DNA of 64,000 bases from Loxodes magnus (Eukaryota > Ciliophora > Karyorelictea > Loxodida > Loxodidae). The position numbers and the translations under genes are program-made. The stretch covers positions 49,853 through 113,852 of the forward strand of contig CAMPDV010001510.1 of assembly GCA_946699065.1 (NCBI GenBank). Reading direction: 5' to 3'. The notes under the pieces are model-generated. The model saw only the letters and a program-made list of their open reading frames with translations. It was not told the DNA's origin and did not search any database. Shown piece after piece: positions 384 to 41,565 of this stretch. Numbering within the stretch: the stretch's first letter is position 1; every line of letters starts with the position of its first letter.

Positions 384-1130
384 TCAAAAATAATTGTCTA
401 GAATTATCTTCATAAAAAAAAACACGACTATGAATAAAATATAAATCACTGTGCTGACTATTTATTTCCTTTGCTTTATTTAATTTTTTATAATGTTACT
501 CTTATCTTCGTTGGTTTTTAAAGATAGCTTATTTTATTTTTGCCATAGAATATTTTACAACTTTCTAAAGTCGTCTATTTTTACTTTCCTAGATGTATGA
601 CTTTTAGTTACAGAAGAAAATTTTTGCTATTATAATCTTGTGATATTTTTTTAATTCTGAAGAGTTAATTCATAAAGATTAGAGAACTTACTTCTTAAGA
701 GTGAACTCAAAATAGTTTTTTCTCTAATTAACCCTTTGCCAATTTATCCTTAATTTCTAGGTTTATTAAGTATATCTCTATCGACTTTTATCTGATTTTT
801 GAAACTTTGTGTCTTTTACATTAAATTATTAAAGTTGGTCGAAAATTTGTAATGAGTCGTTTTAGGTGTTCTGCCGGAGTATTTTTTGAAAAGTTAATTC
901 TTTTTAACTTCTAAATAAGAAGAACTCGAAAAATCATTAGCGTTATCCTTAAGAGTTAATTGCTCTATACTCGAACAACTTATAACCCTTTATTAGTCAA
1001 ACTATGAGTTATTTTATGTTTCATCTTTATGCCCAAGCAAATTCATGAACTTATATCCATTTGAAAGCACTTTATTTATTTTATCCTCCTTGGTTTCTTT
1101 TTATATCTGCTCTTCTACTATCGTCTCCAT
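384..1130 (-). CDS. R-family membrane protein, copy in R1 (248 aa)
   Basis: With TAA and TAG read as glutamine, this frame is open for 248 codons from ATG to TGA, exactly the same length as the R3 copy. The protein begins METIVEEQ and has a conserved hydrophilic core (SSSSYLEVK, then LFKKYSGRTPK). A Gln/Lys/Ser-rich middle follows, then a single hydrophobic segment of about 20 residues near the C terminus, and the end reads DNYF. That layout suggests a tail-anchored membrane protein with its bulk in the cytosol. I do not recognise the family. Many residues differ from the R3 copy, yet no stop or frameshift has entered, whereas the flanking R sequence is full of single-base indels. That points to selection on the protein. 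It is the only gene I could find in this R unit. Confidence 0.75.
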
Positions 1131-2252
1131 TTTAATTATAGATTTCTTTAGAAACGAGCTTAAATAATTATGGCAATGTTGAATAAAACTTTTAATTTTT
1201 GAAAATATTCAGGTATTTAAATCCCTCAAAACTAAATAAAAGAATGCTATTTACATTCATTTTATAATTTTAAATTCCTCTTAATTTTATGTTTCATTTA
1301 GAAATTTTATTTGCACTTAATTTAATTTTGTTATATTTTAGATACTTAATGAAAAACAATATTAAAAATATAATCTAAAACATTAATACTCTTTAAATTT
1401 ATCTAAATAAAATAAATCAGTTAGTTAAAAAGTATTTCATTTAAAAATAACAGAAGAAATTATAAGGATAAATTTTCCTAATAAATATGCTTATTTTATA
1501 TTTATTTGAATCTAATACTCAAAAATACATATTTGAAACTATGTTTGAATTAATAGCAGAATCTAAACTAAATAAGTATCTGATACCTTTTTAAGTAAAA
1601 TCAAGCTTAATTAATAAATTCCTAAACATAAGAAAAACAAAAAGCAATTGAGCGAAATTAATATATTAATAAATTGTCTTTATTTGAAGGTAATTTAGCC
1701 TAGAATTAAAAATACTATATCTATAATTAAGATATATATCTAGTTATTTTCATAAATTAAATTATTTAGAAATTTCTATTTTAAGAGACTAAATTTTATT
1801 TGCTTATTTAATGTTTAAACTAAGATATATTAAAACCCTCATATTCTATCTTTTTATTACATATAGACCTTTATTTAAAACTTTATAGTGAATATTAACA
1901 AACATTTAGCAAATTCGTTTCTTTAATTTACATACATTTGGTCTTTAGATTTTTCTAATTTATGTGAGTCTTATATTATAAATATGGTAATGTGATATAT
2001 CCTCTTTTTAAGCAAATCTTTGATTTTAGTGTAGATAAGCATTTTAAGAATAAATATAAAATAAAAAGAAAAATTAATTTTATTTAAAATTTTCATAAAT
2101 TTTTGATTTATGGCAGCAAGAAAACCTTTACTAAAACTTAAACTAAATTTTATAAAAAATAATTAAAACAAAAGAAAAGGATTAAGCAAATTTAATAAAT
2201 CTTATGTAACTTATGTAAAAATTATGTAAAACTTAGTCTATTTATTGTATTA

Positions 2253-2319
2253 GTATAATTTGCTTATAATTTGCTTATAATTTGCTTATAATTTGCTTAT
2301 AATTTGCTTATAATTTGCA
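2253..2319. repeat. Tandem 11-bp repeat (TTATAATTTGC)n
   Basis: About six units of TTATAATTTGC stand in direct tandem. The corresponding place in R2 (about 21505-21525) and in R3 holds a single unit, so the array expanded in R1 only. Confidence 0.9.
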
Positions 2320-5300
2320 CTGAAGCATTCTTATGAAATAAAGTTAAATTTTTATTTATAAATGAAAAAATCCTTTGAAGTATATTTTCTTAATGTAAAA
2401 GAATTAAAATCTTGATATGCTAGTAGCTAGTATATTTATGTTTAATGCTTTTATTATAATTCATATACAATTTATATGAAAGATTAACATGATGAGATTA
2501 GGTAGCTTCATTTAATATTTGCAATAGTCTAATTTATAACTCTTGTAATTAACAATAAACACATTAAGTTTTATCCTTTTATTTCCTGAGAATAATAATA
2601 ATATATTCTTAGTTTAAAATTTCTAGATACAATTATTTCTAAATTAAAAGATTGTATAATCAATCCTTTAAATAATAATTTAAGCATTACATTAAGTTTA
2701 GATAAAATAAATTTTAAATAGAATCTATATACTTAATTTATTCTTAAATCATTTTAGGAGGAATAAATCTAAATAATTAATACTAAAGACAAGAATTAAG
2801 AAAATATGACATAGCTAAGTAAATTTAGTGAAATAACTATTAAAATAAATTTTAGTGAGAAAGAGACTGATATTTTACTCATAGAAATTAAAATATTTTA
2901 TTTTATTTATCTAACTAAATTTAATTTAATTTAATTTAATTACTTTTCATAATTTTAGTTTCTATTTCGTTTTATCAACGAAAATAAATCTTAAAAATAT
3001 TTAAATTCTTATAATTTTATTTATTAAAGTTCTATCTTTTCGAAATCTCAGTCATAATAAAGTGATAAAAAATCAAAAAGATAAAACTTTAAATTTAAAA
3101 TTTTTTAGCAATTAAGAAATTAGAATTGATAATATTATGCAATATCTAGCTGAAATATTGTCTGACTTAAATTAAATATTAAAACTACTGATAAGTTATT
3201 AATATCTATTTTTATTATCTTAAATTTAGTCTTATAAAATATTAATTCATAGAAATTAAATCTCTTTATTTTATTTATAATTTATTAAAATACATACCAA
3301 AAAAATAAAATTTTAGTTCTTAAGTTGTAAAGAAGGAAAATATAAAATGTACATTCTTTTCGAAATATTAGTGTGACTAGATAATTTAAAAAATATAATT
3401 TTTGTCCATCTAAAGATAAATATTTTCAGATCTATTAAATGATTCTTCTAGTAAAAATTTACTAAGCAAAAATAATAATTATATCTCTTATAGAATTAAT
3501 TAAATAAAATTTTTAATTTAGAACTTTTGTGCATAGATATATCTAATTAGGATTTATATCATTTTAGGTAATTCATTCAAACTTATTAATTATAAAATTT
3601 TATATATTTTAGAATGAGGAACAATTATAAGGTATAATTAATGTTAATTTACTCTTTTTACTAAAAAGTCTAATAAAATAATTAAAATTTATATAACTAT
3701 AAAACTAGATAATTATACAATTTTTAACTAAAATGTTATATTAGAATAATAATTACAATAAATTTTCCTTTACTAAGTATAAAACATTATATTAAATCAA
3801 TTATATATAACTTAATAAATTAATAGTAAACTTAAACAAATTTTAGAAAAGTTTATTAATAGATAGGTTGATGAGCTAGCAAATAAGTATATCCTGATAT
3901 AAGAATTTATTAATAAATTCTAATTTTAAGGAATGAATAAATAAAATTAAATTTATTCATTTTCATAAATAGAATAAATTAATTTAAATTTAAAATTTTA
4001 TTTTTGTGCAAATATTATAAAAAGATGATGCAAAATTTAAAAATTCATTTAAAATCTACTTTTTAAGATATATGAATATAGAAATAATAGCTTAGAATAT
4101 ATATCTCAAATGTAATTTAAGCTGAGGCTTCCATTTGAATATTTTATGATAAAATAATAATATAAATTAGAATTTAGAATAGCTTATGTTTCAAAAATAT
4201 AACATTTTTATTTAATAAAATACTCAAACTTTTGCTATTATTAAATTTAATTATCTATCATATATAATACTTAATATGCTATAAACATATTTCATATTTA
4301 GACTAACAAAATTTCAAAGTCTTTTATAGATCGTTTTTAGTATTAAAGGACATACCTAAAAATTTTTTTTTAATTTAATCTCATTTAGCATTCATGCTTT
4401 TTAGAAGTTTTGTAGCTTATTTAGAAAAAATTTAAATAATGAATGGAAATTTTAAAATAAACTAAGACAATTAATCTTAAATAATTTATTTTTTATGAGG
4501 TTTAAAGTTTTAGAATGATTAAAGCTTATAAATTTCTAGTATTTTAAATATTTTATTATTCTTTTAGTTATATATATAAATTAGTAAATTTACTATTATT
4601 AATATCCCCAAATTTAATTAAACTATTTCCCAACTTAATTCTTATCTGTTACTCTAGCAATACTTTTCTATCTATAAAAATTTGAGAATTAAGGTTTAAG
4701 TTTTTAATTTAGAAAGCAATATCACTAAAGCAAATTAAAATAAATATAATAAAAATATAAATGCTATTGATTATTCTTTAATTTAGAAAATATATATAAC
4801 TATTCTCTTTATTTATTTTAAATATATTATAGTTCTAGCTATTTTAATCATATAATTCATCTAGATCTATACTTGCTTATAAAAGTAACTTAATTATAGT
4901 CTCTAAAAAATATTTTTATTTTACATTTATTAAATTAATAAGCAGGATGATTTAAAAGTATTTAATGGAAAACATTTAATTCGAAGTGAAGGATTTAAAA
5001 TATAAATCGTATCATCTTTTAACTAAAAACAGAAACTTATAAAAGAAAAATAATTTTCTTAAATAAATGATGCTAATGATATAATAATCATAAACTTAAA
5101 ATTAATTAAAATTAAATACAATACAATAAATAGATGGTTTCACATATATTATAACTATAATAAACAAAAGAAATTAGATTAAAATATATAAGATTGTTTT
5201 AAATAAATTTAAATATTCATATTTCTAATTATTTATTAAAGAATTAATGAAATAACCTAAATATTTAGTTTCTTAAGCAAAAATGAGATTTTAATTTAGT

Positions 5301-6268
5301 ATTTTCTACAATTAACTAAATAAAAAATAGAGTTTATAGATAATTAAATCAAACTTGCTTTATATTTTTAAAATTGGGATATAATTAATATACTTAAATA
5401 AATGATTTTAACAATAATTTTTATTAAATCAAAATATAAAAATGAGTACAATCATAATCCTAATAAATTACAAGCTTGAAAATATTGGAAATAAATTAAT
5501 TAAATTTAATAAAAATTTATTTCATTAAAACAAATATTAAATAGTTAGAGTTATATATAAAGTATATGATTGTTTAAGAAATTATATAAATGTTTATCAA
5601 TCAACAAAAATTTCATTAGCGCTAGAGCCCTCTAATGTAATATATAAATACCCTATATTTTTAGAGAAAAGGAAATTATTTAATTTGTTTCTGCTTTTTG
5701 TATTCTTTCATTGCTTTCTTGCTTCTATTAACGAATAAATTTTAGAATTTAATATAAAAAAATTAAGAATTTTATAAAATACATCTGTTAAAGAGAGCAG
5801 AGTCAAGATACCGACTATAGTAAAGCATTATTAATAATAATATCGTTTTTTTATTTAAAATTCACCTAAAACTTAAAAATAAAAAGCTCTTGTTTATTTT
5901 TCTATTATTTTACTATATCCTTCTTGGTATTGCTAGTTTTATCCAAACTATAATGAAATATTTAAGTTATTAATTAACTTTTATATTTTATAATATTTGA
6001 TAAACTTAATTAAAAATAAATCATTTATGCATAAATATAGCCTTAGTAGAATGATTATAAATTAATAGCATTTAAATAATATTATTTTGTATGGATTTAG
6101 TTAATAATTTAAGGTAAAGATAAGACATAATCTTTTATTTTCAAATATAAATTCAACTATGTTTAAAAACAAATTGTACTGATACTTCCTTAAAATTATA
6201 AAGACTCATTAAAATATATTATAATTATTTCTCAAAAATCACTTTTTTTCCTATCTCTTTTTAGTTAA

Positions 6269-6829
6269 ATGTGTTTGATATCAGTTGTTTCCAAAACTTT
6301 TAATATATTAGATAAAAAAATAAAGAATTTCTTGCAAAAAGTCTCTTCTAAACAGGATCCATCCCAATCAAATTACGATCAGCATAACATACTCCAAGAA
6401 CTCAAAATTATGCAAATGGAGAATTTTAAACTTTTAAGAAACGTATAAGAGCTAGAAGGAAAAATTTTATGCCTAGCGTCTAACACATAAATTCTAAAAA
6501 ATGAAAATTTCTAAACAGACAATCTGAGAATTGAGCAAATGGAAGTCAAATTCAATTAATTAGCGGAATTGACTGAAAGCTTATTTCTAAAAAATACAAA
6601 AACAAATGATCCCATGGATCTGGAACCGAATCTACAACCAGCAAAAATTCCGATGGTTAAGAATAGAAAATAATGCTGGTATTGCAGGAAATATGATAAT
6701 ATTTTAAGATAATTCAAAAATTATTATAAAAATAAAAACTTGAAAGCTTTAACCTATGGAGATCCATAAACAAACCATAATGCACTCTAGAAAGCTTAAT
6801 ATACAGAAAAAGATGTACACAGGGAATGA
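6269..6829 (+). CDS. Coiled-coil/CCHC-like protein of element A (186 aa to first TGA)
   Basis: With TAA/TAG as Gln, the frame is open from an ATG lying in the R1 flank to a TGA at 6827-6829. Residues about 45-105 form heptad-like leucine/asparagine-rich sequence (LRNVQELEGK and similar). A family motif DPMDLE follows, then a degenerate knuckle starting CWYC whose later His and Cys are not recognisable. The true start may be the Met inside the insert near 6411. Downstream sequence in another frame resembles the acidic C terminus of the 49.2-kb copy, so this copy appears shortened by frame damage. Role inferred from LINE ORF1 proteins: RNA binding. Confidence 0.55.
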
Positions 6830-7072
6830 AATCTTGAAGGACATCGCATTAGCTTAACAAAGAAGAAATTTTAATATGATTGGAATGGAACTCGATTGAT
6901 GCAAGATACCTTTTATTAAAAAGGGTTAAAAGAGTAATGGAAGATATACTTTAAGAAGAAGATCCAGAAGAAACCTGGAAATGGATTATACTTAAAACAA
7001 TTTTAAACTTCAGTGATGAACCTTATCGATAGGTTGAATCACTATAATTAATTATTAATTATTATTATTATA
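6310..7072 (+). mobile_element. ORF-bearing short retroposon, element A
   Basis: R2 has an empty site here: R2 around 25180-25210 joins the two flanks of this insertion directly, so about 760 bp were gained in R1. The insert carries a zinc-knuckle reading frame, then a two-tier hairpin at 7012-7043, then an (ATT/AATT)-rich tail. The flanks TTTTAATATAT and ATTATTATAT suggest an imperfect target-site duplication. The order ORF, hairpin, A/T repeat tail matches the other copies of this family in the window and suggests target-primed insertion by a LINE-type reverse transcriptase. Confidence 0.7.
7012..7043 (+). other. 3' two-tier hairpin of element A
   Basis: The outer stem is AGTGAT with ATCACT, the inner stem AACCT with AGGTT, and the loop TATCGAT. 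It sits just before the A/T-rich tail, as hairpins do in the other copies, and could be the recognition structure for reverse transcription. Confidence 0.65.
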
Positions 7073-7591
7073 TAAATTTGTTTTGTAAAAGAAATATTTC
7101 AGCAATATCAAAAGATCTTTCATCATCCAACATATAATTGTAACTGAGTGAATAATCGGAGGAGTTAAAATAGAATCTAAAATTATATAATAAAGCAATT
7201 TTATAACTAAATTAGTCTATTAAATCTATTATCATATTTAACTATTTTAAAATTCTTTAATTATTAAAAAAATAATCATTATCACTTTTCCTTTACTTTA
7301 ATGTAATTATTATTTCAGAAAGCAGAAATGATTCATAAAGTATTTAAGAGTATCTAAATAAATAAAATAACTAATAAATTTAAGTAAGAGTAAAAAGAAA
7401 TACTTTAGGATTACTATAAAATAATTATTTATCTATACCTTTTAATTAAAATTAGGATATTTATGTTTATATAAAAAAGAATAGAAAAATAAACTATTTT
7501 TTGGTTACAACTAAAATAAGCTTTAATTAGTTTTTTCTATTTATTAAATTTAATTATTTAAAAAAATGCGATAATACTAAGAAAATAATTT

Positions 7592-8899: not shown

Positions 8900-9453
8900 T
8901 AGTCTATTATTTTTCTTATTATTTTCTATTCCAGTATTATTATTTAATTAATTTCAATTTCTAACATTGTCTATATTTATGTTCCAGTTTGTTTGCATAC
9001 AAAACATCTTGGTTTATTCCTAATTCATTTCTTGTCTTGACTCCTCGGTAGATTAATAGCTCCTTCTATGTCCATTGGATCTTAAATTGTCTTAACTTTG
9101 AATTCCTACTACTGTTGCTACTCGCTGTTCTCTCCAAACACAGTTGTTCTCTGCTGCAGCAATCCAATTTCCGTGAAGAAAGTGTTCTGCTCTCGATCGT
9201 AGACTTCCCAGAAACTTTCTTTCCATTCCTTGAGCTCAGTAACTTGATTTTTTAGAGCTCTATTTTCTAATCGTAGCTTCTTTACTTCCTCCTTCAGGTC
9301 AGAGAATGCGACTAAAATTTATGCCTGTTCTTCCTGGAACTGTGGCATCGCAAACTCTCGCACGGCTGCTGCTTCTTGCGTCTCCAGCACTTTTCTAGGT
9401 CCTTCCTCTTCAGTTGGTGTCATCGAGGTAGCCTTTTGGCGCTTTTGTCCCAT
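8900..9453 (-). pseudogene. Coiled-coil/CCHC protein of element B (broken)
   Basis: The minus-strand frame starts MGQKRQKATSM at 9453. An Ala/Glu-rich region is followed by a clear leucine-zipper-like coiled coil (LKEEVKKLRLENRALKN) at residues of about 48-75. Then comes a Gln-run and the family motif DPMDIE, and finally the first half of a CCHC zinc knuckle (CFVCKQTG). Stop codons of the standard code inside it are TAA/TAG read as Gln. At least two breaks mark this copy as dead. The architecture is that of a LINE ORF1 or Gag-like RNA-binding protein; the 15-bp target-site duplication favours the former. Confidence 0.7.
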
Positions 9454-9644
9454 CTTTTAGGTTGGCCTGGAAGTTCCTAGTTGAGTCTATTATTCTTGAA
9501 GGTTTTGAGAAGAAGATTATTTCTAGGAAGAAGACGTGTTAGTTAGAGATGAGGGTTCTTACTTTCTCTCCCCCTTTTAGGAGGTGGTATAAAAGCCTTT
9601 CTTAAACCCTTCTACCATTTTATTATTTTTGTTTAATTAGTTAA

Positions 9645-11810
9645 TAAAGATTTAATTACTTATATAAATATTTTAAATAACTTCCCACTAGCATATTAAA
9701 ATAGAAGAGTTAATAATTAATTATTTTCATTTAAATTTAAGAAAAAAGTTGTTGGCAAATCCTTATAAATATATAATCGTATACATTCTAGAGAACTAAT
9801 ATCTTTGTATAAATTATTTATATAAATTATTTCTTTCTTTAAATATTAATAACAAAATTCTAAATATTTTTATTAAATTATCAAAAAATTTCATGCTGTC
9901 TAAATAAATAAATGCTAATGAAAGACTTAAAAATTTTGGCTAAAAAACTTGATATATGCAAAACATCAAAGAATTTAATAATATCATAAATTTCTATATA
10001 TCTTAAATTTTTTAAATGACTCTTTAAACATTCTATTAATTGATATTTATTAAATTAAAAATTTAGAAAGCTCTAATTAAGTGATTAAAAGACTCAGATT
10101 TAGTTTGATTACTTCAGCAATACAAAATTAAAAATCATAAACAATTTTAATTTTTTAATTAATTCCTTTAGTGAAACATCTCAGAACTTTTTATTTCAAT
10201 TACTTTGTATAAATAAAATAATAACTATTATATTTCAAGATTTGTGATCATCTTAATAAAAACACCAAACAAAAATTACCATAAACTAATATATGCATAT
10301 CTTAAAATTGATTTTAAATAAATTTTTATAAACATCTAATATTTGACTCTTATGACTTTTAATTTAAATTTATCATTTCTATTACTTTCCATCTGGTTTT
10401 ATTTGATTTTTGTATTCCATTAATTTCTATATTATTATATAAGAAAATAAATCTCAATCCATTTACTTTGATAAATAACTTTATTTTTAATTATTTTTTC
10501 CACTTCAAATATATCTGTGCTTCTTTAAATTTTATATTTAAACAACTAAAGAAAAACTTATATAAAATTTAAAAAATATGAAATAAATTATCTTATATAT
10601 AGAGAGACTTAAACTTCATAAAGTTTATTTCAAAAAATATATAAATTTAAATTAAAAATGTAATAAAAAGATCTTTATTAATTTAATAAAATTGTAACTA
10701 TTTTTATTAAAAAGTATTTATAATTACTAAAATATTAATATGTTTGAGTTTATCTAATAAAATCTTATATTTATCAAATAATTATTTCTAAATATCAAGA
10801 AAATAATAAATCTATTTTATTATTTATAGTCCTTCTAAATTACTTAAAAATAATCTATATCATAAAATCTCTTTCAGTTTTAATTATTGTCTATATAAAT
10901 TGCGTTAAGCTTATTTTTAAATTATAAGCAAGAACATAAATTTTTCTATATTATTAAATCAATTTTAAAATTACTCTTTTAATTCTTCCTAACACAAATA
11001 TTTTGTTATCATAACAGATTTTATTTTTATATTATTAATTAAAAAATCCTTGACTTTTTAAATATTCTAAGCAAGGAAAATTAAAAAAATTTAAATTATC
11101 GTGAAATAAATAAAGGAATAAGGAGTAATACATATAAAAACCATAAAATACTGAAAAATATTAGTTTGAATAAATCAGTGAAAATGAATATTATTTTATA
11201 TAATTATTCACTAAACCTAAATAAAATAACTTTAATTTATTTTAATTTAAATTATAAAATTATACAATTTTTATGAAATGCTTTATGAAAATTTACTAAA
11301 CATAATTTTATTAATGTTATATGACTTTTATATTCTCAAAAAATGTAAAATCCTCTACATTAATTTAAATTTTTCAAAATATCATAATTTTTAAAATTTA
11401 AATGATTAATTTAAACTTAATTATAACTAAAAAATTTACCTAACTTTATGTAAAAATATTTTAAATGAAATTTATTTATTTATTATCTTTTTATAAAAAA
11501 TTAAATAGAAATCAAAAATATTTATTTTATTAAAATAAATCTTCACAATAAAATTAAAATATAAAAGTTTATAAACCATTTTTTTTTAATTATTATTTAA
11601 AAAATAATTTTTATAAAATAAGAAGATTTATTTCTAACTGGAGACGAAGTATTTAGTAATATTAATAATGAAACATTTATTATTTATTTTTTATATTAAA
11701 AAGCATTTTATAATTTACAGTTGTATGAAATTTTAAAATATTTAATTAAAATAAATTATAACATAAAATTATTTATATATAAATTTTCAAATAATAATAA
11801 TAAATTTTAT
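9645..11810. other. Gene-free A+T-rich stretch
   Basis: I see no supported gene or RNA here. The stretch is more than 80 percent A+T by eye, with homopolymer runs and no long frame with coding-like composition. Confidence 0.6.
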
Positions 11811-17076: not shown

Positions 17077-18599
17077 GATGAAGAAAGTTTCCTCCTGGCA
17101 TTCAGAGTAATCCAGCTTGTCACATCTTCCTTCTCTTGTTATTTGTTTCTCTTCTTCCGATTTATCCTCCGTCCGCGCTCATTTTTTTGCTACCTTGCTG
17201 AGCCTCCAAGCAGTATCCGAAGGAGAGGGCTTTCCACTCTATTTAAATTAAATTATAATAAAATATACTCAATAGCATGAATTTAAAATAAATAAAGATG
17301 CTAAGTTTTTAATTTGGAAAAGTAGTTGTTTTAATAAATATCAGATTATCCTATTAATTGGTATTATTACAGTTGCTCATTTTAAATAATTTTCTTTACA
17401 GTTTTAGAGGTTAGAAATTATATACTTGACTGATTAATTTTATAATTACTCAAAATATCTAAATGTATAAAGTAATTATTTAATAAAACTACCTCAGCCA
17501 TTTTACATATTTTCATTCGGTAAGCATTCTAATGTATTTTCATATATCAACTAAAGTTATGTGTTAAAAATTATTTGCTTATTCGATTAGAACATATTTC
17601 ATAAAAAATCAAAGGAATAAGCTAATAACGAGTATATTAATACTCCATAATATATAGGAATCAGAGTATATATCTATAATGCTTGATGTAAAATGTTCCT
17701 GATTGAAATAAAAGAGTTGGATTTATATGAATAAACTTAAACAATAATAAATAATATACATGTTAAAAAATAAATTTAGCTAAGATAATTTTGCTTTATT
17801 TAGATGAAATTGGTATATTCTTATATTTATTAAATCCAATTTACTCCTTATGCAAATTTATTTAGTGATACTTAAAGATCACTAATCAATTAAAATAATT
17901 TTAAATCATTTTAGAGAGTAAAGAGAACTTAACTAAAATTTAAAATATTTAAATTACTTAGATAATTGATTAAGAGGCAAAACATGATGATAAATTACTA
18001 GATGTCTTTTATTAATGAAAACTTATAATCTAAATTTTATTTATTTAAAGTTAAGATTAATTTTTAGTGATTCTTTCTTTTAAACTATTTGGATTAAAAT
18101 TATCTTTATTATATTTTTATTTTTTCATGCTAAATAAAAATAATTTATTAGAAAAATTAATCTATATGTGCATGATTTAATCTTAATTTTAGATTAAACT
18201 AAGAATAAAGATTTGAAGCCAAATGTTTATAAATTAAATATGTTTATGATTTAATTAAATTAGGGAAAATAGAATTTTATATCAATTATATTAAGCTTAT
18301 TACATTAATTCTTAATTTTTAAATTAGATTTAATTCATCATTAACGTCTATTTTTAACTAAAACTTTATTTTCAAACAATCAAACTTATAATAAATTATT
18401 GTAATTAAAAGATTTAAGATTATAAAAAAATAATTTTTAATTATCTAAATGCTTCTATAATTTTAAAAATTTAACTTTAGATATTCTCTTGTAAATAAGT
18501 TTTATTAAAATTAAGATTATTTTATTCCATATGATAGACTTACCAGAATAAATTAAGAATTAAACAATCTATTAAATTAAATAAATCAATTTTATTATA

Positions 18600-18631
18600 G
18601 AGCGCGTAGCACTCTTTTTGGTGCGCAGCTC
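18600..18631 (-). other. GAGCGCG hairpin of SINE copy a
   Basis: The outer stem is GAGC/GCTC, then GCG/CGC with a one-base bulge, and the inner stem GCAC/GTGC around an eight-base loop. It is nearly identical to the hairpin at 29202-29233. Confidence 0.75.
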
Positions 18632-18639
18632 TTTAATAA

Positions 18640-18765
18640 ATGTTTGTTACTGATAAAATTATCAGATATTGATAGACCTTGCTCAAGACTGGTATAATAT
18701 TCAGTACTGATAAAAATGTTCAATACTGATATAATTTAAGAATACTCGTAATATTTAATACTTGT
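18640..18765. repeat. TACTGATA repeats inside SINE copy a
   Basis: Spaced repeats of TACTGATA and close variants (TATTGATA, GACTGGTATA) occupy this stretch. The equivalent stretch of copy b (29245-29370) shows the same pattern with slightly more units. Confidence 0.6.
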
Positions 18766-18813
18766 TGGAGGTTCAAGGACTTAACAGATGTGCGTCTCAT
18801 TGCATCACCAAAG

Positions 18814-18860
18814 CAGAGGACGACATGTGTCAATTATGGGTACTTAAATCCCCACCTCTG
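18814..18860. ncRNA. Small conserved fold, copy 2
   Basis: CAGAGG pairs with CCTCTG; ATTATGGGTAC and TCCCC form an inner hairpin, and GATGAAG follows. It is the first of two tandem units in SINE copy a. Confidence 0.5.
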
Positions 18861-18950
18861 ATGAAGCTCGCAAAAATAATTTTCTTTTGTTCCAGAATAA
18901 AAGCCAGTGCCGAAGGTCAAACTAGCAGATGTCTCAAGGCCAAGCCAAAG

Positions 18951-19000
18951 CAGAGGAAGACATAAAGCCGATTATGGGTACTTAACTTCCCCAACCTCTG
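18951..19000. ncRNA. Small conserved fold, copy 3
   Basis: This is the second tandem unit, with stem CAGAGG/CCTCTG and inner GGG/CCC hairpin. It is flanked by the same CCAAAG and GATGAAG bases as the other copies. Confidence 0.5.
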
Positions 19001-19690
19001 ATGAAGCCGTCCCTTGTTGTTCACCTTCGAACAACTATGGCGATATATAATATTTAATATAAAAAAGTGGAATTTATACTTCTATTATAAAGTTCTCACT
19101 TAAAAATAAAGGAAAAGTTCTTTTAAGTAGAAAATAATTAAAGCTATTTTTACTTATTTTTTAAAGGATAACAAAGCTAAAAATCATAAACGTTTTAGTT
19201 GTAATTTATTATTCTTTAATCTTCTTATCTAAAAGATTATTCGTAAATTTTTGCTTATATAGTGTTCCTTCTATTTATTAATTTGAAGCTTTTATTTTAT
19301 ATAAGAATAAATTATTAATTTCTACTTATAGAATTTATTTATTAAAGAGTAAAAAACCCATTTTGTAAATTATTTTTGTAACTTAAATTTAAAATATTTA
19401 TTAATATAATGTTTGATGTTCTAAGTTAAGATATACCATACCTTAGTTAATTTGAAGGTTTCTATGATCCTTGCATTATATTCTAAATATTAGTTTTGCT
19501 AATTATCTGAATTTAATAAAATTTAAAAATAACTTACTTAAAGTTCCATTTTATGTATAATTCTATGAAATATTGTAAAATCTGAACGAATAAAATAAAC
19601 AACCATTTTATACAAACAGAATTAAAGCAAAAAAATTAAAAGATTAAATTTATAAAAAGATAAATATAATTATAAAATCATATCTAGTTA

Positions 19691-20428
19691 AAAGTAATTG
19701 TCAATAAATATCTTCATAAATGCAAATACGCCCAGGAATAAAATATAAATCACTGCTCTGACTATAAATTTCCTTTGCCTTATTTAATTTTTTATAGTGT
19801 TGCTTTTATCTTCGTTGGCTTTTGAAGATAGCTTCTTTTATTTTTAGCTCAGAATATTTTGCAAGTTACTATAGTCGTCTATTTTTACTTACCTAGATGA
19901 ATAGCTTTTAGTTTAAGAGGAAAGCTTTTGCTACTATAAGCTTGTACTATTCTTTTAATTCTGAAGAGTTAATTCATGAAGATCAGAGAACTAACTTCTT
20001 AAGATTGAACTCGAAGTTCTTTCTCTAAAAAACCTATTGACACTTTATTTTTAGCTTCTAAGTTTATTAAATGTATCTCCATCGACTTATACCTGATTTT
20101 TTAAGCTTTCCGACTTTTATATTAAAATATTAGAGTTAGTCGAAAATTTGTAATGGGTTATTTTAGGTGTTCTGCCTGAGTATTTTTTGAAAAGTTAACT
20201 CTTTTTAGCTTCTAAATAAGAAGAACTTGAGAACTCATTAGCGTTATTCTTAAGCGTTAATTGATTTATACTCGAAAAAACAATCCTTTATTAGTCAAGC
20301 TATGGTATACTTTGGGTTTTATCTTTATGCTCAAGTTAGTTCATGAAACTATATCCATTTGAAAGCCTTTAATTAATTTTTTCCTACTTGGTTTCTTTTT
20401 ATGTCTGCTCTTCTACAATCATATCCAT
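19691..20428 (-). CDS. R-family membrane protein, copy in R2 (246+ aa, stop lost)
   Basis: The frame is open from ATG 20428 through 246 codons to the conserved DNYF end. It matches the R1 and R3 proteins along its whole length, including the SSSSYLE core, LFKKYSGRTPK and the C-terminal membrane segment (VIYILFLGVFAFMKIF). Size differences from the other copies are whole codons. Where R1 and R3 have the stop TGA, this copy has TAA, which would be read as Gln. Translation would run on into the flank unless TAA still stops here. The G-to-A change is a single transition. The function is unknown and the frame is otherwise intact. Confidence 0.7.
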
Positions 20429-23400
20429 TTTAATTATATTTTTATTTATAAATAGCTTAAGTAATTACAGCCATGTTGAATATAGCTTTTAATTTTATAA
20501 AAAATGTAGGTATTTAAATTCCCTAAAACTAAGCAAAAAGATGGTATTTACATACATTTTGTAAATTTGCACTTCCTCTTCATTTTATGATCCATTTAGA
20601 TAATTTAATTTTGCTTAATTTAATTTGGCTATATTTGTGATATTTAGTGAAAAGTTCTATTAAAAACATAATCTAGAACATTAATACTCTTAAACTTGAT
20701 CTAAACAAAATTAAATAATTAGACAGAAGATATATTTCATATAAAATAGGCAGAAAAAATTATAAGGATACATTTTTAATACTAATATGGCTATTTAATA
20801 TTTATTTTAATCTAAGACTAAAAAAGGTATATTTGAACTATATTTGAATTATTAGCATAAATTTTACTAAATTAGTATTTGATAGCTTTTTAAGTAGCAT
20901 TAAGTTTAAGCAATTTATTTTAAACATAATTAAAGCAAAAAGATTTGGGCGAAACTTCATAATATTAATAAATTGTCTTTATTTGAAAATAGTTTAGATT
21001 GTAATCGAAAATAATATATCTACAATTAAATATATACCTGTTTATATTCTAAGTTTAAATAATTAATGAATGTTAATTGTTTATTAGTCTTCATATTCTA
21101 TCTAATAATTGATATATAGACCTTTATTTAAAACTTTAGAGTGAACTTTATTAATTGCAAACATTTTAGCAAAGTTGTTTCACTTTTTAATTAATTTAAA
21201 GGCATTTGCTTTTAGAATTTCTAATTGGTTTGAGCCTTAAATTATAAATCTTGGTAATGTGTTATATCCCCTTAAGTTTTTAATCAAATTTTTAATTTTC
21301 GTGCAGGTAATTTTGAGAATAATGATTAAATAAAAATAAAAGTTAATTTTAATTAAAATGCTCTTAATTTTTGATTTATGGCAGCAAGGTAATCTTTACT
21401 AAAACCAAAGCAAAATCTTAGAAAAAGCAATTCTTAGAAAAATGAAAAAGATAAGCAAATTTAATAAAGCTTATGTTAAACTTAATCTATTTATTGTATT
21501 GGTATAATTTGCTTATATTCTACACTGAAGCATTTCTTTTGAAATAAAGCTAAATTTTTATTGCTATACGAATTCTTTAAGAACATTTTCATAATGTAAA
21601 AGAATTAATATAAAGATATGCTAGTGTCTAATATATTTAGTGCTTTTATTCATATACAATTTATATGAAAGATTAACAAGATAAGATTAGGTAGCTTCAT
21701 TTAATATTTGCAATAGTCTAATTTATACTCTTTAATTAAGAATAAATTTATTAAGTTTCCATCCTTTTATTTGCAGAGAATAATAGTAATAAATTCTTAA
21801 CCTAATAGATACCATTGCTTCTAAATTTTAAGGTTGTATAAAAATCCTTAAAATAATAATTTAAGTATTATATTAAATTGCAAATAGAATCTTTATACTT
21901 AATTTATTCTTAACTCATTTAGTTGCAATAAATCTAAAAATTAATACTTAAATTAAATTTTAGTGAATTGACATTTTACTCATAGAAAATTAAAAGTTAT
22001 TATTCATATTTTTATATTTAATGAAAAGCATCTAAGTTGATTTAGTCACTTTTCATAATTTTAGGCTTTATTTTGTTTAATCAAACTAAAATAAATCTTA
22101 AATATTAATTTCTTAATATTTAACTCATTAAAGTTCTATGTTTTAAAAATCTCAGTCATAACAAAGTGATAAAAATCTATAAGATAAAAGTTTAAATTTA
22201 AAATGTTTTAGCAATTAAGAAATTAGAATTTATTATATATTATATAGAATCTAGTTTAAATATTGGTGACATAAATCAAATATTAAAACTATTGATAACT
22301 TATAAATATCTATTTTTATTATATTAATTTATAGAAATTTAATCTCTTCGTTTGATTTATATTTTATTAAAATACATACCAAATTAAATTTGAAGTAGCA
22401 AAGACAGAAACTATAAAATCTACAATAGTACTAGAATTAATAATTTAAAAATATAATTTTATATAAGAATAAGTATTTTAAAATGTTTAATGATTCTTCT
22501 ACTAAGTATAAAATAATAATTCAAAATATCTTACATAATTAGTTAAATCATTTTTAAACACTTCCCATTTTAGTGCCTACCAATAAATCAAGATTCATAT
22601 CATTTTCAACAATTAACTTGAACTTTCTGAATGTAAAATGTAAAATGAGGAATAATTATAAGCTATAAATAATGCTCTTTTACGCTTTTACTAAAAAGTC
22701 TAATATAATTTAGATAACTACACAATTTTTTACTAAAATGGTATATTAGTCTAATAATTACTATAAAGTTTTCCTTTATTAAGTATAAAGCATTATATTA
22801 AATCATTAATATATAACTATCAAATTAATAGTAATTTTAAAAAGGTTTAGAATAATTTATTAATGCCCTAATAAATAAGTAGACCCTGATATAAGAACTT
22901 ATTTCTAAATTCATTACTCTTAAGGAATTAATAAAACAAAAATATTTGCCTTTATTCTATTTTCATAAATAGAAAAGATTTATATCTCTAAAAATTATAA
23001 TCAATCAACTTTATAAACCGATGCTAAACTTAAATGCTCATTTGAATTAAATTTTTAAAAGTATATGAGCATAGAAGTAATAGCTTCTAATTAATATCTC
23101 TAATGCAATCTAAAGTAAAATAGTTATTTAAAAGTTTTATGATAAAATAATAATATAAATTAAGAATAGCTTATGTTTCAAAAATATATACATTTTTATT
23201 TAATAAATTATATAAAACTTCACTATTATTAAATTTAATTATCATATATAATACTTAATATTCTATAAGCTTATTCCATATTTAGACTAATAAAATTGTC
23301 TATATAGATTGTTTTTGGTATTAAAGCACTTATCTTGGGAATTTTAATCTTAATTAATGTAGCAATCAATGCTTTTGTTTTGTATTTATTTAGAGAAAAT

Positions 23401-25509
23401 TAAACTAATGTTTGGAAATGTTAAAATAAATAAGACAACAATCTAAAAAAGAATTTTGCATTTATAAGGTTTAAAGTCTTAGAAGGTTAAAAATGTATAA
23501 TTTCTAATATTTAAATATTTCTTTTAATTATATATAAATCAGTAGTTTTACAATAAGTTTATATCTTTAAATTTAATTAAACTATTTTTTAACTTTTTTC
23601 TTATCTTTTGCTCTTATATAAATTGAGTATTAAAGTTTAAGTTTTGAATTTAGAAAACACTTACACTAAAGAAATTAAAATAAATAGAATAAAAATATAA
23701 ATGCTATTGATTATTGATTATTTAGAAAAGATATATAGCTATTCTATTTATTTATTTTAAAATTACTATAATTTTAATTCTTTTATGCATATCATTTATC
23801 TCTATACTTGCTTACCAAAGTAATTTAATTATAGACTCTTTAAAAGAATATTTTCATTTAAATAGACTAGATTATTTAAACCTATTACAACCAAAACATT
23901 TTATTCTAAGTGAAGGATTTAAAATATAAGTAGCATCATCTTTTGTTTAAACTGAAATTTTTTAGTTTAAAATTATCTTCTTTAAATTAATAATGCTAAT
24001 GGTATAATAATCATAAACTTCTAGTTATATGAAATATAAAAAATAGATGGTTTCACATTCATTATAGCTTATAATAAACAAAAATTAAATATTATTTTAA
24101 ATAGATTAAAACATCTATTATTATAAAGTATTTATAACCAAGTATATGAAGAAGCTAAACATTTTGTTTTTTAAAGACAAAAAATTAAATCATTTAGTAC
24201 TTTTTAAATTAGCAAAACTAAAAGTAGAGTTTATAATAATTAAATAAAACTTGCTTTATATCTTTAAAGTTGCTATATAATTAATATACTTTAATAAATT
24301 ACTTTAAAAATTATTTCTTATTTTGAATCAAAATATAAAAATGTGTGAAACCATAATCATAATAAATTATAAGCTTGAAAATAGTAGAAATAAATTAATT
24401 TAATAAAAATATATATCATTAAGGTAAAAGTTCAATAGTAAGAGTTATTTATAAAGTATATGATTGTTTAAGAAAGTATGCAAACGTTTATTTATCAATA
24501 AAAATTATATTAGCGCTAGTGCTTTCAAATATAATATTTAAAATACCCTATATTTTTAGCGAAAAAGAAACTATTTAATTTCTTCTTCTTATAACTTTTC
24601 AATGCTTTCTTGCTGCTATTAAAGAAAAACTTTAGAATTTAATGCAAAAAATGCTTAGAATTTTAAAAAATTAATCTTCTAAAGAGAGAAAGAGTCAAAA
24701 TACCGACTATATTGAAAGCATTTTTAATAATAATATGTTGATTTTAATTTCAAAGTCATAACTTAAAAATACAAAACTCTGCTTATTTTTCTATTATTTT
24801 AATATAGCATTCTTGGAACTGCTAGTTTTCTACAAATTATAATTAAATATTAAAGTTATGAATTCCTTTTTTATAGTATTTGATAAAGTTAATCCAAAAT
24901 AAATAATTTAAGCATAAATATAGGCTCAGTTGAATGATTATAACAGCATTTAATTAATATTTTTTATGATCCAATTAATAATCTTAGGTAAAGATAAGAC
25001 AAAATCTTTTATTAGAATAATTAGTAAATTCTGCTATGGTAAATGAAACAAAATAGTACTAATACTTCCTTAAAATTATAAAGAATCATTAAATTATATG
25101 TAATTATTTTTCAAAATTCACTTTTATCTTTTCTTATTTCTTTTTAGTTCAAAACATATTTTATACCAGTAGCTTCCAAAACTTTTAATATGTAAATTAA
25201 TTTTTCGTAAAAGAAATCATTCAATATCAAAAGATCTTTCATCATCCATTTTAAAATAATAACTTAGGGAATAATTGGAGGAGTTTAAAATGAAATTTAA
25301 AATTATATAATAAAGTAATATTATAACTAAATTAGTCTATTAAATCTATTATCATATCTAACTATTTTAAAATTCTTTAATTATTTTAAAAACTAACCAT
25401 TATCACTATTCCTTTACTTTAATTTACTTCAGTTATTAATAATCCAGAAGTAGCTTTTTAATAAACTAAAGAGACATTTAAGAGATAATTACTAAAATAT
25501 TATAATTTT

Positions 25510-26240: not shown

Positions 26241-26249
26241 AAGAATAAG

Positions 26250-29485: not shown

Positions 29486-29590
29486 ATGAAGCTCGCAATA
29501 TTATTTCTTTTTTGTTCGAGAATTAAAAATAAAATAAGCCAAGCCAGTGTCGAAGGTCTAAGAATCTTATTTCTCGAGGCCAAGCCAAAG

Positions 29591-29640
29591 CAGAGGAAGA
29601 CATAAAGTCGATTATGGGTACTTAACTTCCCCAACCTCTG
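29591..29640. ncRNA. Small conserved fold, copy 5
   Basis: Second tandem unit of SINE copy b, almost identical to the unit at 18951-19000. Confidence 0.5.
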
Positions 29641-30048
29641 ATGAAGATGACCTTGTTGTTCACCTTCGAACAACTATGGCGGTTTTAAAAAATATATATC
29701 CTATGATAATTTAAAAATGAATTGTTATATAGTTTGAATTAAGTAGATATTTATTTGCCTATATAAAAAATGATTATTTTAAATATTGCTTGATAACAGA
29801 TAAACACTAAATAAACAAATATTTTTAATTTTTAGAAATAAAAGTTGCTTTAACTATTATAATTAAGAGAATTTATGAAAGTTTTCTCTTAATTTGAAGG
29901 AAAATTTATTTATATTTTATTAATTAGGATAAGCATAAGATATATAAATTATAAAAGAGATAATCTTTTAAAGTATTTAAATTAAAGTTTATAAAATCAA
30001 GATATATGATGGTATTTAGATTATATCAAATATTTAAAAGAAACTAAA

Positions 30049-30120
30049 TAGTGAGGAGTAGTTTCGATCTACCAACCTCTGGGTTATGGGCCCATCGCTC
30101 TTACATTGTGCTACCCCGCT
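30049..30120 (-). tRNA. Initiator tRNA-Met (CAT), decayed copy
   Basis: This is a 72-base counterpart of the sound gene at 52133-52204, with anticodon CAT in GGGCCCATAACCC. The acceptor and T arms, including GATCGAAAC, still pair. The D arm reads GCAC...GAGC instead of GCGC...GCGC and no longer pairs fully, the A-box region is altered, and the first anticodon-stem pair is lost. It is probably a pseudo-tRNA created by duplication of block S. Confidence 0.75.
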
Positions 30121-30435
30121 ACTTGAAGTAATACTTAAACTCCTAATAATTACTTAAAGGGAACTTTGCAAATGTATTGGAAGCAATCTTAAATTTAAAG
30201 CTTTATTATTTATTAATTATTTTATTTATAAACTTAAAACTTAATCTTATAATTTCAACATTAATTCAGTTAACATCATATTGATATCTATCCAGGGCAA
30301 TTTTTTATATAACCAAGTTTGAGACAATTCTAACACATCTTTTGCCTTTACTATAGAGATTTATTTTATTAATTTTGTAATATTAATAAACTTATGGGAA
30401 AGGAACAGAAAAAATGAATTTAATATAATTAGACT

Positions 30436-31969: not shown

Positions 31970-32390
31970 TTAAAGATAATCATTTTAATTTAAGCAAATC
32001 AATTTATACCTAAATTATTAAGTTTAATTTAAGAGGATTTGATTCATCATTTAGTAGAATTTACTATAAATACGCTAATCTATAATATTTAGAATTTATT
32101 CTTTATGAGATAAGTGGGTAAAGGATGAAAAATTAATTTAAAAAGATATAAATTTAAGATTAAATATTCAAGTTTATTCTTTAAAAGCTTTAAATTTAAA
32201 TAGTTAACAAAAAATAGAAGATACTTAGCTTTGAAATTGTAAAGCATTAATTTTAGATAAAAATAAAAAAAGATTTAAATTAATATCTAATAATTAAATA
32301 ATAAATATACATGTATTAAGTTTATAGTAATTTATGCATATCATCTAATTAGTAATATTCCTTTAGTGATTAAGAATCTTTTACTTAAAA
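31970..32390. other. A+T-rich spacer
   Basis: I see no gene or RNA between block S1 and the R fragment. Confidence 0.5.
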
Positions 32391-32990
32391 AGAAAAAGTT
32401 TAAAAAGCTTGAGTTTAAATAAATTAAAACTTTCATATCTTTTAATAATAATTCTTTATTTCTTTAAGTTTAAATTATATTGTAATTCATTTTTTCCAAT
32501 AATTACAGATATAAACTTACATTAAATTATATCTATAACAAAATTATAAAAAGTAAATATAAATAAATTAAAGAGTTAATAAGAAGTTTAGATTGCTAAG
32601 TTTCCCTTTTTGAGGAAAATATTTAGAAATAAGGATCATTTTAATTAAGTTTTGATAAGTTTAAATTGGGAATAATCAATAAAATATGCATTTCAATCTT
32701 ATTTTTTAGCAATTCTTCCTTTAACAATGTCGAATCACTTGAGATTTTTATATTTGAATGGAGAACCAAAAAAAAAAATTTTATAAATATTTAAACTTGG
32801 AAATAGATTATTTTAGATTGTAGAAATCATATTGCTTCAGAAGGGATTTCTTAAATAATTTTATTTTAGGAAGATAGATGAAAATTAGAATCAAAATGAT
32901 ATTCTCATTTAGAAACAGTTGGTAATTAAATGAAATATACCCAAAAGAAGGAATTTCAGAATTTAATAAGTAAAAAGCTTATGTCTATAA
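32390..32990 (+). repeat. Fragment of repeat unit R (R5)
   Basis: This segment aligns with the inverse of R3 from about 45650 down to 45060. The common tract includes a run near 32800 resembling CTTGGAAATAGATTATTTTAG, and a shared ATATACYCAA motif near 32935. The membrane-protein gene is not included. Confidence 0.65.
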
Positions 32991-36520: not shown

Positions 36521-36525
36521 AAAAT

Positions 36526-36646
36526 CAGGTCATTTCTGACCTTCCAGAAATTGGGCAGAGCCACATATTGGATGTAGTTCTCAATTAGCAATAATCGCGC
36601 ATCAGCAGAGCTTCACTTGCTACGATATTGCCCCTAGCACGAGGAT
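36526..36646 (-). ncRNA. U4: U4 spliceosomal snRNA
   Basis: Read on the minus strand, the sequence contains GGGGCAATATCGTAGCAAG followed by GCGCGATTATTGCTAATTGA. The latter is the highly conserved U4 core that pairs with U6 (stems I and II flanking the 5' stem-loop). Further on, AATTTCTGGA resembles an Sm-binding site and is followed by a terminal hairpin, AGGTCA-GAAA-TGACCT. The total of about 120 bases is slightly short of the roughly 145 of animal U4, which have longer 3' stems. The 5' end is estimated from the start of the conserved region. It is a pocket of normal base composition in very A+T-rich DNA and looks functional. Upstream there is only a vague TTTAAATTAAAG TATA-like element. 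Confidence 0.9.
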
Positions 36647-36659
36647 ACTCTTTACTAAC

Positions 36660-38160: not shown

Positions 38161-40818
38161 TTTATTTTTCTTAAATGAAGTTATAACCTAATTAATTTAA
38201 AAGAATAAGTTCTAATATCAGGATATACTTATTAGCTCATCAACCTTCTATTAGCAACTTTTCTAAAACCTTTTTTAAAATTACTACTAATTTGTTAAGT
38301 TATATATAATTGATTTTATATAATGTTTTAAATTTAGCAAAAGTGAACATTTTATAGTAATTATTAGACTAATATAGTATTCTAGTAAAAATTGTTTAAT
38401 TATCTAGTTTTATAATATAGAAACTTTTAATTATTTTATTAGAAATTTTAGTAAAAAGCGCATATGAACATTAAATATACCTTATAATTACTCCTCATTT
38501 AAAGTATATACAATTTTAAATTGAGTATGTTCGAGTTAATTATATAAAATGATATAATTAGCTATTAAATTTATTGCTATATACAAAAGTTATAAAGCTT
38601 TTAAAAATTATTATTTTTCCTTAGTAAATTTTTACTAGAAGAATCATTCAATACATTTGAAAATATTTATCCTTCATCTGGCTATAAATCTATATTTTTA
38701 ATTTATTTTGTCACACAATTATTTTTAAACCAAATGCACATTTTATAATTTCCTTCTTTGCTACTTAAAAATTAAAATTGTATTTTTGGAATAAATGTTA
38801 ATAAAATATAAATGACACGAAGATATTTATTTTCTATAACTTAATATTTTATAAGATACAATTAAAATAATAAAATTAGATTTTATAACTTATTAACAAT
38901 TTTAAATTTTAACTTTTATCTTATAGTTTTTTATCCCTTTATTATGATATTTCGAAAAGATAGAACTTTAATAAATAAAATTATAAACATTTAGATATTT
39001 TAAGATTTATTTTAGTTTGAAAAAACGAATTAGATTTTGAAATTATGTAAAGTAATTAAATTAACTTAGATTTGTTTTCATTAAATTAAATTTAGCTAGA
39101 AACATATTAGGTAAAATATGAATGATATCTTTTAATTTTCTATGAGAAAAATACCAATACTCTATCTTACTAAATTTTATTATATAGTAATTTCCCTAAA
39201 CTAACTTAACTATAGCATAATTTCTTTATTTTTGGTTTATATTAGTTATTTAGATTTATTTCTCCTAAAATGATTTAAGAATAAATTAAGAATATAATTT
39301 CTATTTAAAATTTATTATATCTAATTTTATATAATGCTTAAATTATTACTTTAGCTTTATTTATACAATCTTAAAATTTAAAAATAATTATTATCTAGAT
39401 ATTTGAAATTAAGAATATATTACTATTATTCTCTGGAAATAAAAGGATAAAAGCTTAGTAAGTTTATTTTTAATTAAAAGAATTATAAATTAGACTACTG
39501 CAAATATTAAATGAAGCTACTTAATCTCATCATCTTAATCTTTAAATAAATTGTATATGAATAATAATAAAAGCACTAAACATAAATATACTAGCCACTA
39601 GCATATCTTTATATTAATTTTACATTTAGTAAATATACTCAAAGAATTTTTTAATATAGTGATAAAAATTTAATTTATTTCTAAAGAAATGCTTCAGTGT
39701 AGAATATAAGCAAATTATACTTATATAATAAATAGACTAAGCTTTGCTTAAGATTTATTAAATTTATTTAATCTTTTTATTTTGTTTTAACTATTTTTTC
39801 TAAAATTTTGCTTTAGTTCTAGCAAAGGTTATCTCCCTAAATAAAAAATAATTAAGATTTTAAATAGAATTGTTTTTTCTTTTGATTTTATTTTTATTCT
39901 TAAAATGCTTATCTACACTAAAGATAAAGATTTGTTTAAAAAGGAGATATCTAATATTTTCAGATTTATAATACTAGATTCACATCAGTTAGAAAATTCT
40001 AGAGACCATATACATTTGAAATTAAAAAGTGAGTCAACTTTGCTAAAAGTTTGCTAATATTCACTATAAAATATATGAATAAAGATCTATATATCAATTA
40101 TTAAATAGAATATGAGGGTTTTTATATATAGTCAAAACATTAAATAATCAATTAAAATTTGTCCCTTAAAATAAAAATAAATAAATAATTTAAATTATGA
40201 AAATAACTAGATTTATATCTTAATTATAGATATAGCATTTTTTAATTCTAATATGAATTATTTTTAAATAAAAACAATGCATTATTATTATGAATTTTCA
40301 CTCTAATTTTTTGCTTTTATTATGTTTAGGAATTTATTAATTAAACTTGATGTTAGTTAAAAAGCTATCAGATCATTATTTAGCTAAATTTCTGCTGCTA
40401 GTTCAAACACTGTTTCAAATATGTATTTTTGAGTCTTATATTAAGTTAAATATAATATAACCAAATTTGTTAGGAAAACTTATCCTTATAATTATTCTGC
40501 TATTTTTAAATGAGATACATTTAAGTCTAATTATTTTTAACATAGATAAATTTTAAGAGTATTAACGCTTTAGATTATATTTTTTAATAGTGTTTTTTAT
40601 TAAGTACTTAAAATATAACCAAATAAAATTAAGTGGTAGTAAAATTATCTAAATGAATCATAAAATTAAGAGGAATTACAAATTTATAAAATGTATGGAA
40701 AGAACATCTTTTTATTAGCTTTAGGGGATTTAATACCTGCTTATTTTCAAAATTTAAAAGTTATATTCAACGTAGTCATAATTATTTAATATCGTTTCTT
40801 AAGAAAAATATAATTAAA

Positions 40819-41565
40819 ATGGAGACGATTGTAGAAGAGCAGATTTAAAAGGAAAATATGTATGAAAAAATAAATCAAGCACTTTCAAATGGAAATAGTT
40901 TTATGAGCTTGCTTGGGCGTAAAGATGAAGCATAAAGTATCTCATAGTTTGACTAATAAAGGTTTATTGGCTGTTCGAGTATAGATCAATTAACACTTAA
41001 GAATAACGATAATGAACCTTCGAGTTCTTCTTATTTAGAAGTTAAAAGGAATTAACTTTTCAAAAAATACTCCGGCAGAACACCTAAAATGATTCATTAC
41101 AAATTTTCAATTGACTCTAATAATTTAATGTAGAAGACACAAAGTTTAAAAAATCAGGTATAAGTAGATGGAGAAATATCTAATAAGCCTAGAAGTTAAG
41201 AATAAATTGACAAAGGGCTAATTAGAAAAAGATCTATTTCGAGATAAATATTAAGAAGTTAATTCTCTAATCTTTATGAATTAACTCTTCAGAATTAAAA
41301 AAATAACCCAAGACTATAATAGCAAAAACTTCCTTCTGTAACTAAAAGCCATACATCTAGGAATGTAAAAATAGACGACTTTAGAAAGTTGTAAAATATT
41401 CTATTTTAAAAATAAAAGAAACTATTTTTAAAAACCAACGAAGATAAAAGCAACATTATAAAAAATTAAATAAAGTAAAGGTAATTAATAGTCAGAACAG
41501 TGACTTATATTTTATTCATAATCGTATTTTTTTGTATGAAGATAATTCTAGACAATTATTTTTGA
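40819..41565 (+). CDS. R-family membrane protein, intact copy in R3 (248 aa)
   Basis: The frame runs ATG to TGA, 249 codons including the stop, with TAA/TAG as Gln. N-terminal METIVEEQIQKEN is followed by a short Gln/Asn-rich region. The conserved core (SSSSYLEVKRNQLFKKY, SGRTPKMIHYKFS) lies at about residues 75-107. A Lys/Arg/Gln-rich middle contains the conserved NLYELT and KIDDFRKLQNIL segments. A single hydrophobic helix (TYILFIIVFFCMKIIL) and DNYF end the protein. No signal peptide is visible, so a tail-anchored topology with a cytosolic domain is likely. Upstream lies ATATAATTAAA directly before the ATG, conserved in R1. It could also be a domesticated element protein; the function is unknown. 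Confidence 0.8.

Follow-up and report, generated by a model that had tools for sequence, protein, structure and literature searches.

In Oxytricha trifallax, transcribed germline-limited open reading frames (TGLOs) are expressed in development, and 356 of 10638 of them were mapped to conserved orthology clusters, according to the passages on them in PMC8495736. In Tetrahymena thermophila, genes are described both on germline-limited elements (REP, Tlr) and on non-maintained chromosomes, in the parts of PMC5182062 that deal with them. Here, we present a multicopy gene from Loxodes magnus, carried within a repeat that we call R, in a stretch of 64,000 nucleotides (assembly GCA_946699065.1, contig CAMPDV010001510.1, positions 49,853 to 113,852 of the forward strand; hereafter the window, numbered from its first base). 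The R gene resembles the TGLOs in being an intron-poor ciliate open reading frame (ORF) in what appears to be germline DNA; it differs in how it is recognized: the TGLOs are defined by transcription and somatic absence (PMC8495736), the R gene by the conservation of its frame between repeat copies.

The safest statement about this locus is that it is a protein gene present in several copies, selected to stay translatable, and lying in ciliate DNA that is rich in repeats and of germline type; its protein is probably in use. A fuller account, which we consider slightly likelier to be right than wrong, is that of a fast-evolving multicopy gene in germline-type DNA, with its frame under selection and its copies spread by segmental duplication.

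The gene and its copies

The window holds four copies of the gene, the first three of which were translated with the ciliate code (table 6), where TAA and TAG are read as glutamine:

384..1130, minus strand: R1 gene copy, 249 codons (248 amino acids and a TGA stop)
19691..20428, minus strand: R2 gene copy, 246 codons to the final DNYF, without a stop, the frame running to 19184
40819..41565, plus strand: R3 gene copy, 249 codons (248 amino acids and a TGA stop)
58355..59100, plus strand: R4 gene copy, carrying five 1-nt indels when compared with R3

The initial annotation had reported the first three as open frames under the ciliate glutamine code, with R1 and R3 of exactly 249 codons including the stop, a shared core, and a C-terminal hydrophobic helix ending in DNYF. 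Its coordinates, lengths and motifs were right: R1 and R3 both end in TGA, and the core and the helix are present in all three copies. Across an alignment of 248 columns, the R2 and R3 proteins are 70% and 77% identical to R1, the only length differences being two single-residue gaps in R2, and every copy has SSSSYLE, QLFKKYSGRTPK and the final DNYF unchanged. TAA or TAG is used in some copy in 27 codon columns; 17 of these are glutamine in all three copies (four of the 17 with CAA in at least one copy) and 10 are not glutamine throughout. The reading of TAA and TAG as glutamine fits these columns; such a code, taken with the base composition, points to a ciliate, although table 6 also serves other lineages. 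The start context TATAATTAAAATGGA is identical in the four gene copies. In R2, the stop was lost by a change of TGA to TAA and the frame continues for 168 further residues, so this copy may be starting to decay or may be making an extended protein.

With a composition of about 20% GC, the window contains 176 ATG–TGA ORFs of at least 120 amino acids, so a single open frame means little here. What goes beyond chance is the joint upkeep of the frame in three copies.

Conservation of the reading frame

The shared DNA around the gene is 79–84% identical between copies, with insertions and deletions (indels) at 16–24 per kb, mostly frame-breaking. Outside the gene we counted 46 indels in 2937 aligned bases for R1–R3, 71 in 2996 for R2–R3 and 108 in 5056 for R1–R2, of which 39, 62 and 90, respectively, break the frame. 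Within the gene the same pairs show 0 in 747, 2 in 738 and 2 in 741 aligned bases, all of 3 nt, against 11.7, 17.5 and 15.8 expected from the flanks (P from 4 × 10−6 to 2 × 10−5); 9.9, 15.3 and 13.2 frame-breaking events were expected there, and the probability of seeing none is 4.9 × 10−5, 2.3 × 10−7 and 1.9 × 10−6, these P values not being independent since the three pairs share copies. Frame-breaking changes are rarer in the gene than in its neutral neighbors, as is characteristic of a selected protein-coding gene. The description in the initial annotation of flanks drifting by many indels around a gene that changes by whole codons is borne out by these counts, and the equal indel rates inside and outside the frame that it had named as contrary to selection were not what we found.

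In each of the three pairs, no 744-column window lying wholly outside the gene has fewer than two frame-breaking indels, and 300-column windows free of frame-breaking indels mark just one stretch outside it (R1, about 2228–1914), in R1–R3 only. The sense frame contains no TGA in any of the three copies, and each of the other five frames has 3–7. The gene in R1–R3 carries 88 substitutions and no indels, and the two pairs with R2, in which the missing stop was scored as an indel, have 42 and 38 substitutions per indel. The range is 8.6–12.1 for six other duplicated pairs of the window, including two further stretches of R.

It is highly improbable that no selection was involved, the frames being open by chance or by a low indel mutability of a GC-richer stretch. 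The substitutions alone are nearly neutral, and the chance of finding no TGA is appreciable for each pair (P 0.17–0.32); the indels of R2, on the other hand, are both exactly 3 nt. The gene has a GC content of 0.26–0.28 versus 0.17–0.19 outside, and the flanks have no window at 0.25 or above it with which it could be matched, but the flank indel rate is flat over three GC bins from below 0.15 up to 0.25 (20.7, 20.9 and 18.8 per kb), and a duplicated pair at GC 0.376 still has 10.7 indels per kb. Furthermore, differences between R3 and R4 strike the gene as often as its flanks (5 of 744 versus 28 of 6504), which shows that 1-nt changes do reach this stretch in the present assembly.

The fourth copy

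The five indels of the R4 gene relative to R3 thus occur at about the rate of the surroundings. Over 7.3 kb, R3 and R4 differ by 33 indels and 25 mismatches, and three clusters account for 19 of the mismatches; 31 of the 33 indels are single-base, and 28 of these 31 repeat a neighboring base. Among the 18 indels usable for polarity (those from the stretch that aligns with R1 and R2, after five more rows were dropped where the alignment ends, at 41950), 15 are derived in R4, one in R3 and two are unclear, and of three substitutions in the alignable part, R3 has the derived state in two, the third being unassigned. An indel excess made up mostly of repeats of a neighboring base points to an unpolished consensus, and the five gene indels are probably errors of that kind; we therefore give R4 no weight on either side of the question of function, and frame breaks in 56726–64000 should not be trusted. 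We rejected the view of R4 as a pseudogene, as its excess of single-base indels is unlike the ratio of substitutions to indels seen elsewhere in the window.

The encoded protein

The protein is basic, with 40–44 lysines and arginines versus 21–23 aspartates and glutamates, and all three copies have a C-terminal hydrophobic helix with a Kyte–Doolittle (KD) score of 2.1–2.6. The best 19-residue KD scores at the C terminus are 2.61 in R1 and 2.17 in R3, compared to best values elsewhere of 0.46 and −0.06. The helix is accordingly the sole hydrophobic one and lies at the extreme C terminus in R1 and R3; R2 reads beyond it. The proposal of a tail-anchored protein in the initial annotation agrees with the topology of R1 and R3, but no selection on the helix could be demonstrated, and R2 extends past it.

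Our homology searches returned no homologue in the collections covered, none of which is a ciliate database, so this absence says little. Pfam searches with the three copies gave no accepted family, and PHROGs and the sequences of the Protein Data Bank (PDB) gave zero matches. Viral contigs yielded zero relatives and prokaryote contigs no accepted relative; two of the contig searches (one viral, one genome) may back-translate by the standard code and so miss TAA/TAG glutamine codons. The pattern used for one viral and one genome contig search spans no glutamine codon, and a further viral-contig pattern allowed TAA/TAG at one of its two glutamine codons. The AlphaFold model has a mean predicted local distance difference test score (pLDDT) of 54.7, and a Foldseek search with this low-confidence model gave one match, at an unacceptable E-value of 7.1.

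Several candidates were set aside. EMP70 in Pfam was matched by R2 only (E 0.0053, 15.9 bits against a cutoff of 27), over the membrane helix, and two NCBIfam matches (E 0.025 and 0.073) fell far below their cutoffs. The genome-contig pattern search pointed to four bacterial loci, for which tblastn of the three copies gave E-values of 0.005 or worse, 10 of the 17 matches being of 10–13 residues. The reading as a SNARE was dropped as well: no SNARE family appears among the Pfam matches of the three copies up to E 10, where the filters drop most weak matches.

Selection on residues

We then compared amino acid changes in R1, R2 and R3 with counts expected from the substitution spectrum of the flanks. 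Synonymous change is 1.05 of the flank expectation and nonsynonymous change 0.74 (51.2 and 116.8 changes), giving an omega-like ratio of about 0.70 (one-sided P 0.025); by branch, omega is 0.98 for R1, 0.66 for R2 and 0.59 for R3, no branch being significant alone. Because synonymous change equals the flank rate, we rejected gene conversion as the cause of the intact frames. Constraint is concentrated in codons 67–97 (8 nonsynonymous changes versus 20.7 expected, P 0.0013) and 183–222 (13 versus 24.5, P 0.0083), which are also lowest in the maximum likelihood (ML) fit (twice the log-likelihood difference, 2dlnL, of 10.1, and of 5.8 or 4.7). Codons 98–149 (34 versus 33.1 expected) and 223–248 (13.8 versus 15.4) look neutral, and codons 1–66 and 150–182 are intermediate. 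Few 93-column windows of R vary as little as the core (0.118), but a noncoding stretch near 39470–39560 lies slightly lower (0.111).

A number of observations weigh against our preferred account. The limits of the segments just given were picked after the alignment was seen. The joint ML omega of 0.77 or 0.78 is not significantly below 1 (2dlnL 2.1 or 1.8, by frequency model), and the pairwise ML values of 0.56–0.72 reach significance for R2/R3 only (2dlnL 5.57). When substitutions are permuted, nonsynonymous counts lie at the neutral expectation (P 0.27–0.42) and the BLOSUM score gives P 0.07–0.22, while the distribution of variable columns by codon position (51/46/63) is not significant (P 0.24). 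The hydrophobicity of the C-terminal helix does not go beyond neutral expectation given the divergence (P 0.21–0.26; P 0.08 for polar residues), the R2 copy has no stop codon, and a match to the U4 small nuclear RNA (snRNA) in the window may mean that part of it is soma-destined.

The frame is under strong selection; that on residues is weak, patchy and limited to parts of the protein. The dN/dS comparison (nonsynonymous to synonymous change) that had been proposed at the outset is thus divided between the ratio obtained with the flank spectrum and the ML and permutation results, and the underlying claim of selection on a repeat-encoded protein stands for the frame, with a weak residue-level constraint confined to segments.

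The repeat and its spread

The units of R in the window are as follows:

1..7308, gene orientation minus: R1 unit, cut by the window edge, with about 760 bp extra at 6306–7065 relative to R2
17257..25429, gene orientation minus: R2 unit, with a GC-rich insertion at about 18575–19042
38189..45764, plus strand: R3 unit
56726..64000, plus strand: R4 unit, 99.2% identical to 39195–46452 (matched to 63998) and reaching the window edge
32281..32960, minus strand: R fragment from downstream of the gene, lacking the gene itself

The ends of R are ragged and unlike from copy to copy, and inspection of the available ends revealed no terminal repeats, inverted ones included, and no target-site duplication. 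The youngest duplication, R3/R4, begins inside R and extends past the end of the shared R sequence. Six-frame Pfam scans of 2450–7382 and 41566–46502 found no transposase, integrase, polymerase or reverse transcriptase domain; a chitin-synthase-like match there lies below the cutoff (E 0.04). Segmental duplication explains the spread of R better, because the recent duplication ignores the limits of R and the two scanned stretches lack a mobility enzyme. For these reasons, and given the ragged ends and the want of any accepted domain in the scanned stretches, we see no support for the suggestion in the initial annotation that the gene may promote the spread of R or gain from it.

It is conceivable, though rather unlikely, that R is an unclassified transposable element with the protein as its own product, selection having acted through transposition while it was active. 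Several R copies in both orientations lie within 64 kb among decayed ORF families, and 1319 germline repeat consensus sequences are given as unclassified in T. thermophila (PMC5182062). Set against this are the missing mobility-enzyme domain in the scanned stretches, the differing ends without a visible terminal inverted repeat, and a duplication of R3/R4 made regardless of the limits of R; moreover, the three R alignments contain no other 744-column frame-conserved stretch, the 300-column one in R1–R3 being the one exception. A selfish germline gene would be a further, very improbable possibility: a fast-evolving membrane protein made from germline DNA at mating might favor R-bearing chromosomes and be removed with the soma, by a logic comparable to that of killer meiotic drivers.

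R1 contains a perfect 11-bp tandem repeat of 5.9 copies at 2254–2318. The GC-rich (0.376) insertion in R2 relative to R3 is a 0.5 kb repeat, present at 18575–19042 and 29177–29681 (84% or 91% identical, depending on alignment method), with a 64-bp piece at 16875–16938; no clear target-site duplication accompanies it in R2. The Cbs chromosome-break motif has two sites with two mismatches, which are mutual duplicates in R3/R4.

Genomic context

We regard the context as germline-type because GC is about 20% and gene-like ORFs are few, several being broken or repeated. An ordinary somatic gene family, with lineage-specific neighbors in soma-retained DNA and R as co-duplicated long intergenic sequence, is unlikely. 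It would accord with copies lying within 60 kb of each other, with the U4 snRNA and a tRNA-Met gene in the window, and with the start context shared by all four copies. However, the alignment of R1 with R2 spans 6.3 kb without a second conserved frame, and a number of the remaining gene-like ORFs are split over several frames. So few conserved frames would be unusually sparse for a ciliate somatic genome.

In the segmental-duplication account that we prefer, R would hold one gene for a protein, with 248 codons of the ciliate code in a single open exon. Selection has preserved its frame in the lineages leading to at least three copies even as the DNA around it decayed, and there is weaker evidence of residue constraint, mostly in codons 67–97 and 183–222. 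The product would be basic, largely helical and held in a membrane by its last ~20 residues, and the two constrained stretches might form contact surfaces on the cytosolic side. The DNA would be germline (micronuclear) sequence, the copies would have spread by ragged-end segmental duplication and not by transposition of R, and expression of the gene would take place in the germline or in the somatic nucleus as it develops.

Other features of the window are as follows. The U4 snRNA match is full-length (93.8 bits, 36529–36646, minus strand) and close to R3. A duplicated pair, 29855–30435 and 51935–52525, has a tRNA-Met gene in one member (52133–52204) and a weaker tRNA match in the other (30049–30120). 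The region 47050–49004 (plus) is strongly protein-like in three successive frames, with only weak sub-cutoff RING finger matches in Pfam at its end, and would be a decayed or mis-sequenced gene. ORF pieces related to 30285–31094 (plus) occur at 9028–9726 (minus), 26998–27393 (plus), 45959–46153 (minus) and 52091–52510 (plus); MVEGFK.GFYTTS is common to 9028–9726 and 30285–31094, and a cysteine-rich motif ends the latter. These pieces are perhaps first ORFs of decayed elements of the kind lacking long terminal repeats (non-LTR). Cysteine motifs are also seen in 49528–49959 (plus) and 5957–6826 (plus). Beside R4, 54498–57171 (minus) is a C2H2 zinc-finger-like gene in two overlapping frames, with matches just below the Pfam cutoffs, and a diverged relative of it (34.5% identity over 110 amino acids) lies near R2 at 26034–26759 (plus).

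Comparison with known systems

Many ciliate germline repeats are unclassified, and in many cases it is not known whether their ORFs act. Setting the indels within an ORF against those around it, across diverged copies of a repeat, singled out a gene with evident function, with no need of expression data, and the same test is applicable to a whole germline genome. Its multicopy protein constitutes an unassigned family, whose role is testable in conjugation.

Tail-anchored membrane proteins, including SNAREs, are a known class. The R protein is like them in its lone hydrophobic helix, which sits at the C terminus, where a long predicted helix ends, and is followed by a very short tail; it differs in having no Pfam SNARE match, no solved relative, and no acceptable structural match for its low-confidence model. 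Like the germline genes of Tetrahymena, which also uses code 6, it is a predicted protein of the sort found there in soma-lost DNA, some with RNA-seq support (PMC5182062). Some of those genes, however, resemble transposon genes or transposases (PMC5182062), whereas the R protein matches no family searched and the two scanned stretches of R show no transposon enzyme. The TGLO survey, as described in PMC8495736, removed repeat-associated sequences, whereas the R gene is multicopy and lies inside a repeat. If it is germline-limited, the R gene would be another gene of this kind, unusual in being repeat-borne and, so far, without transposon features.

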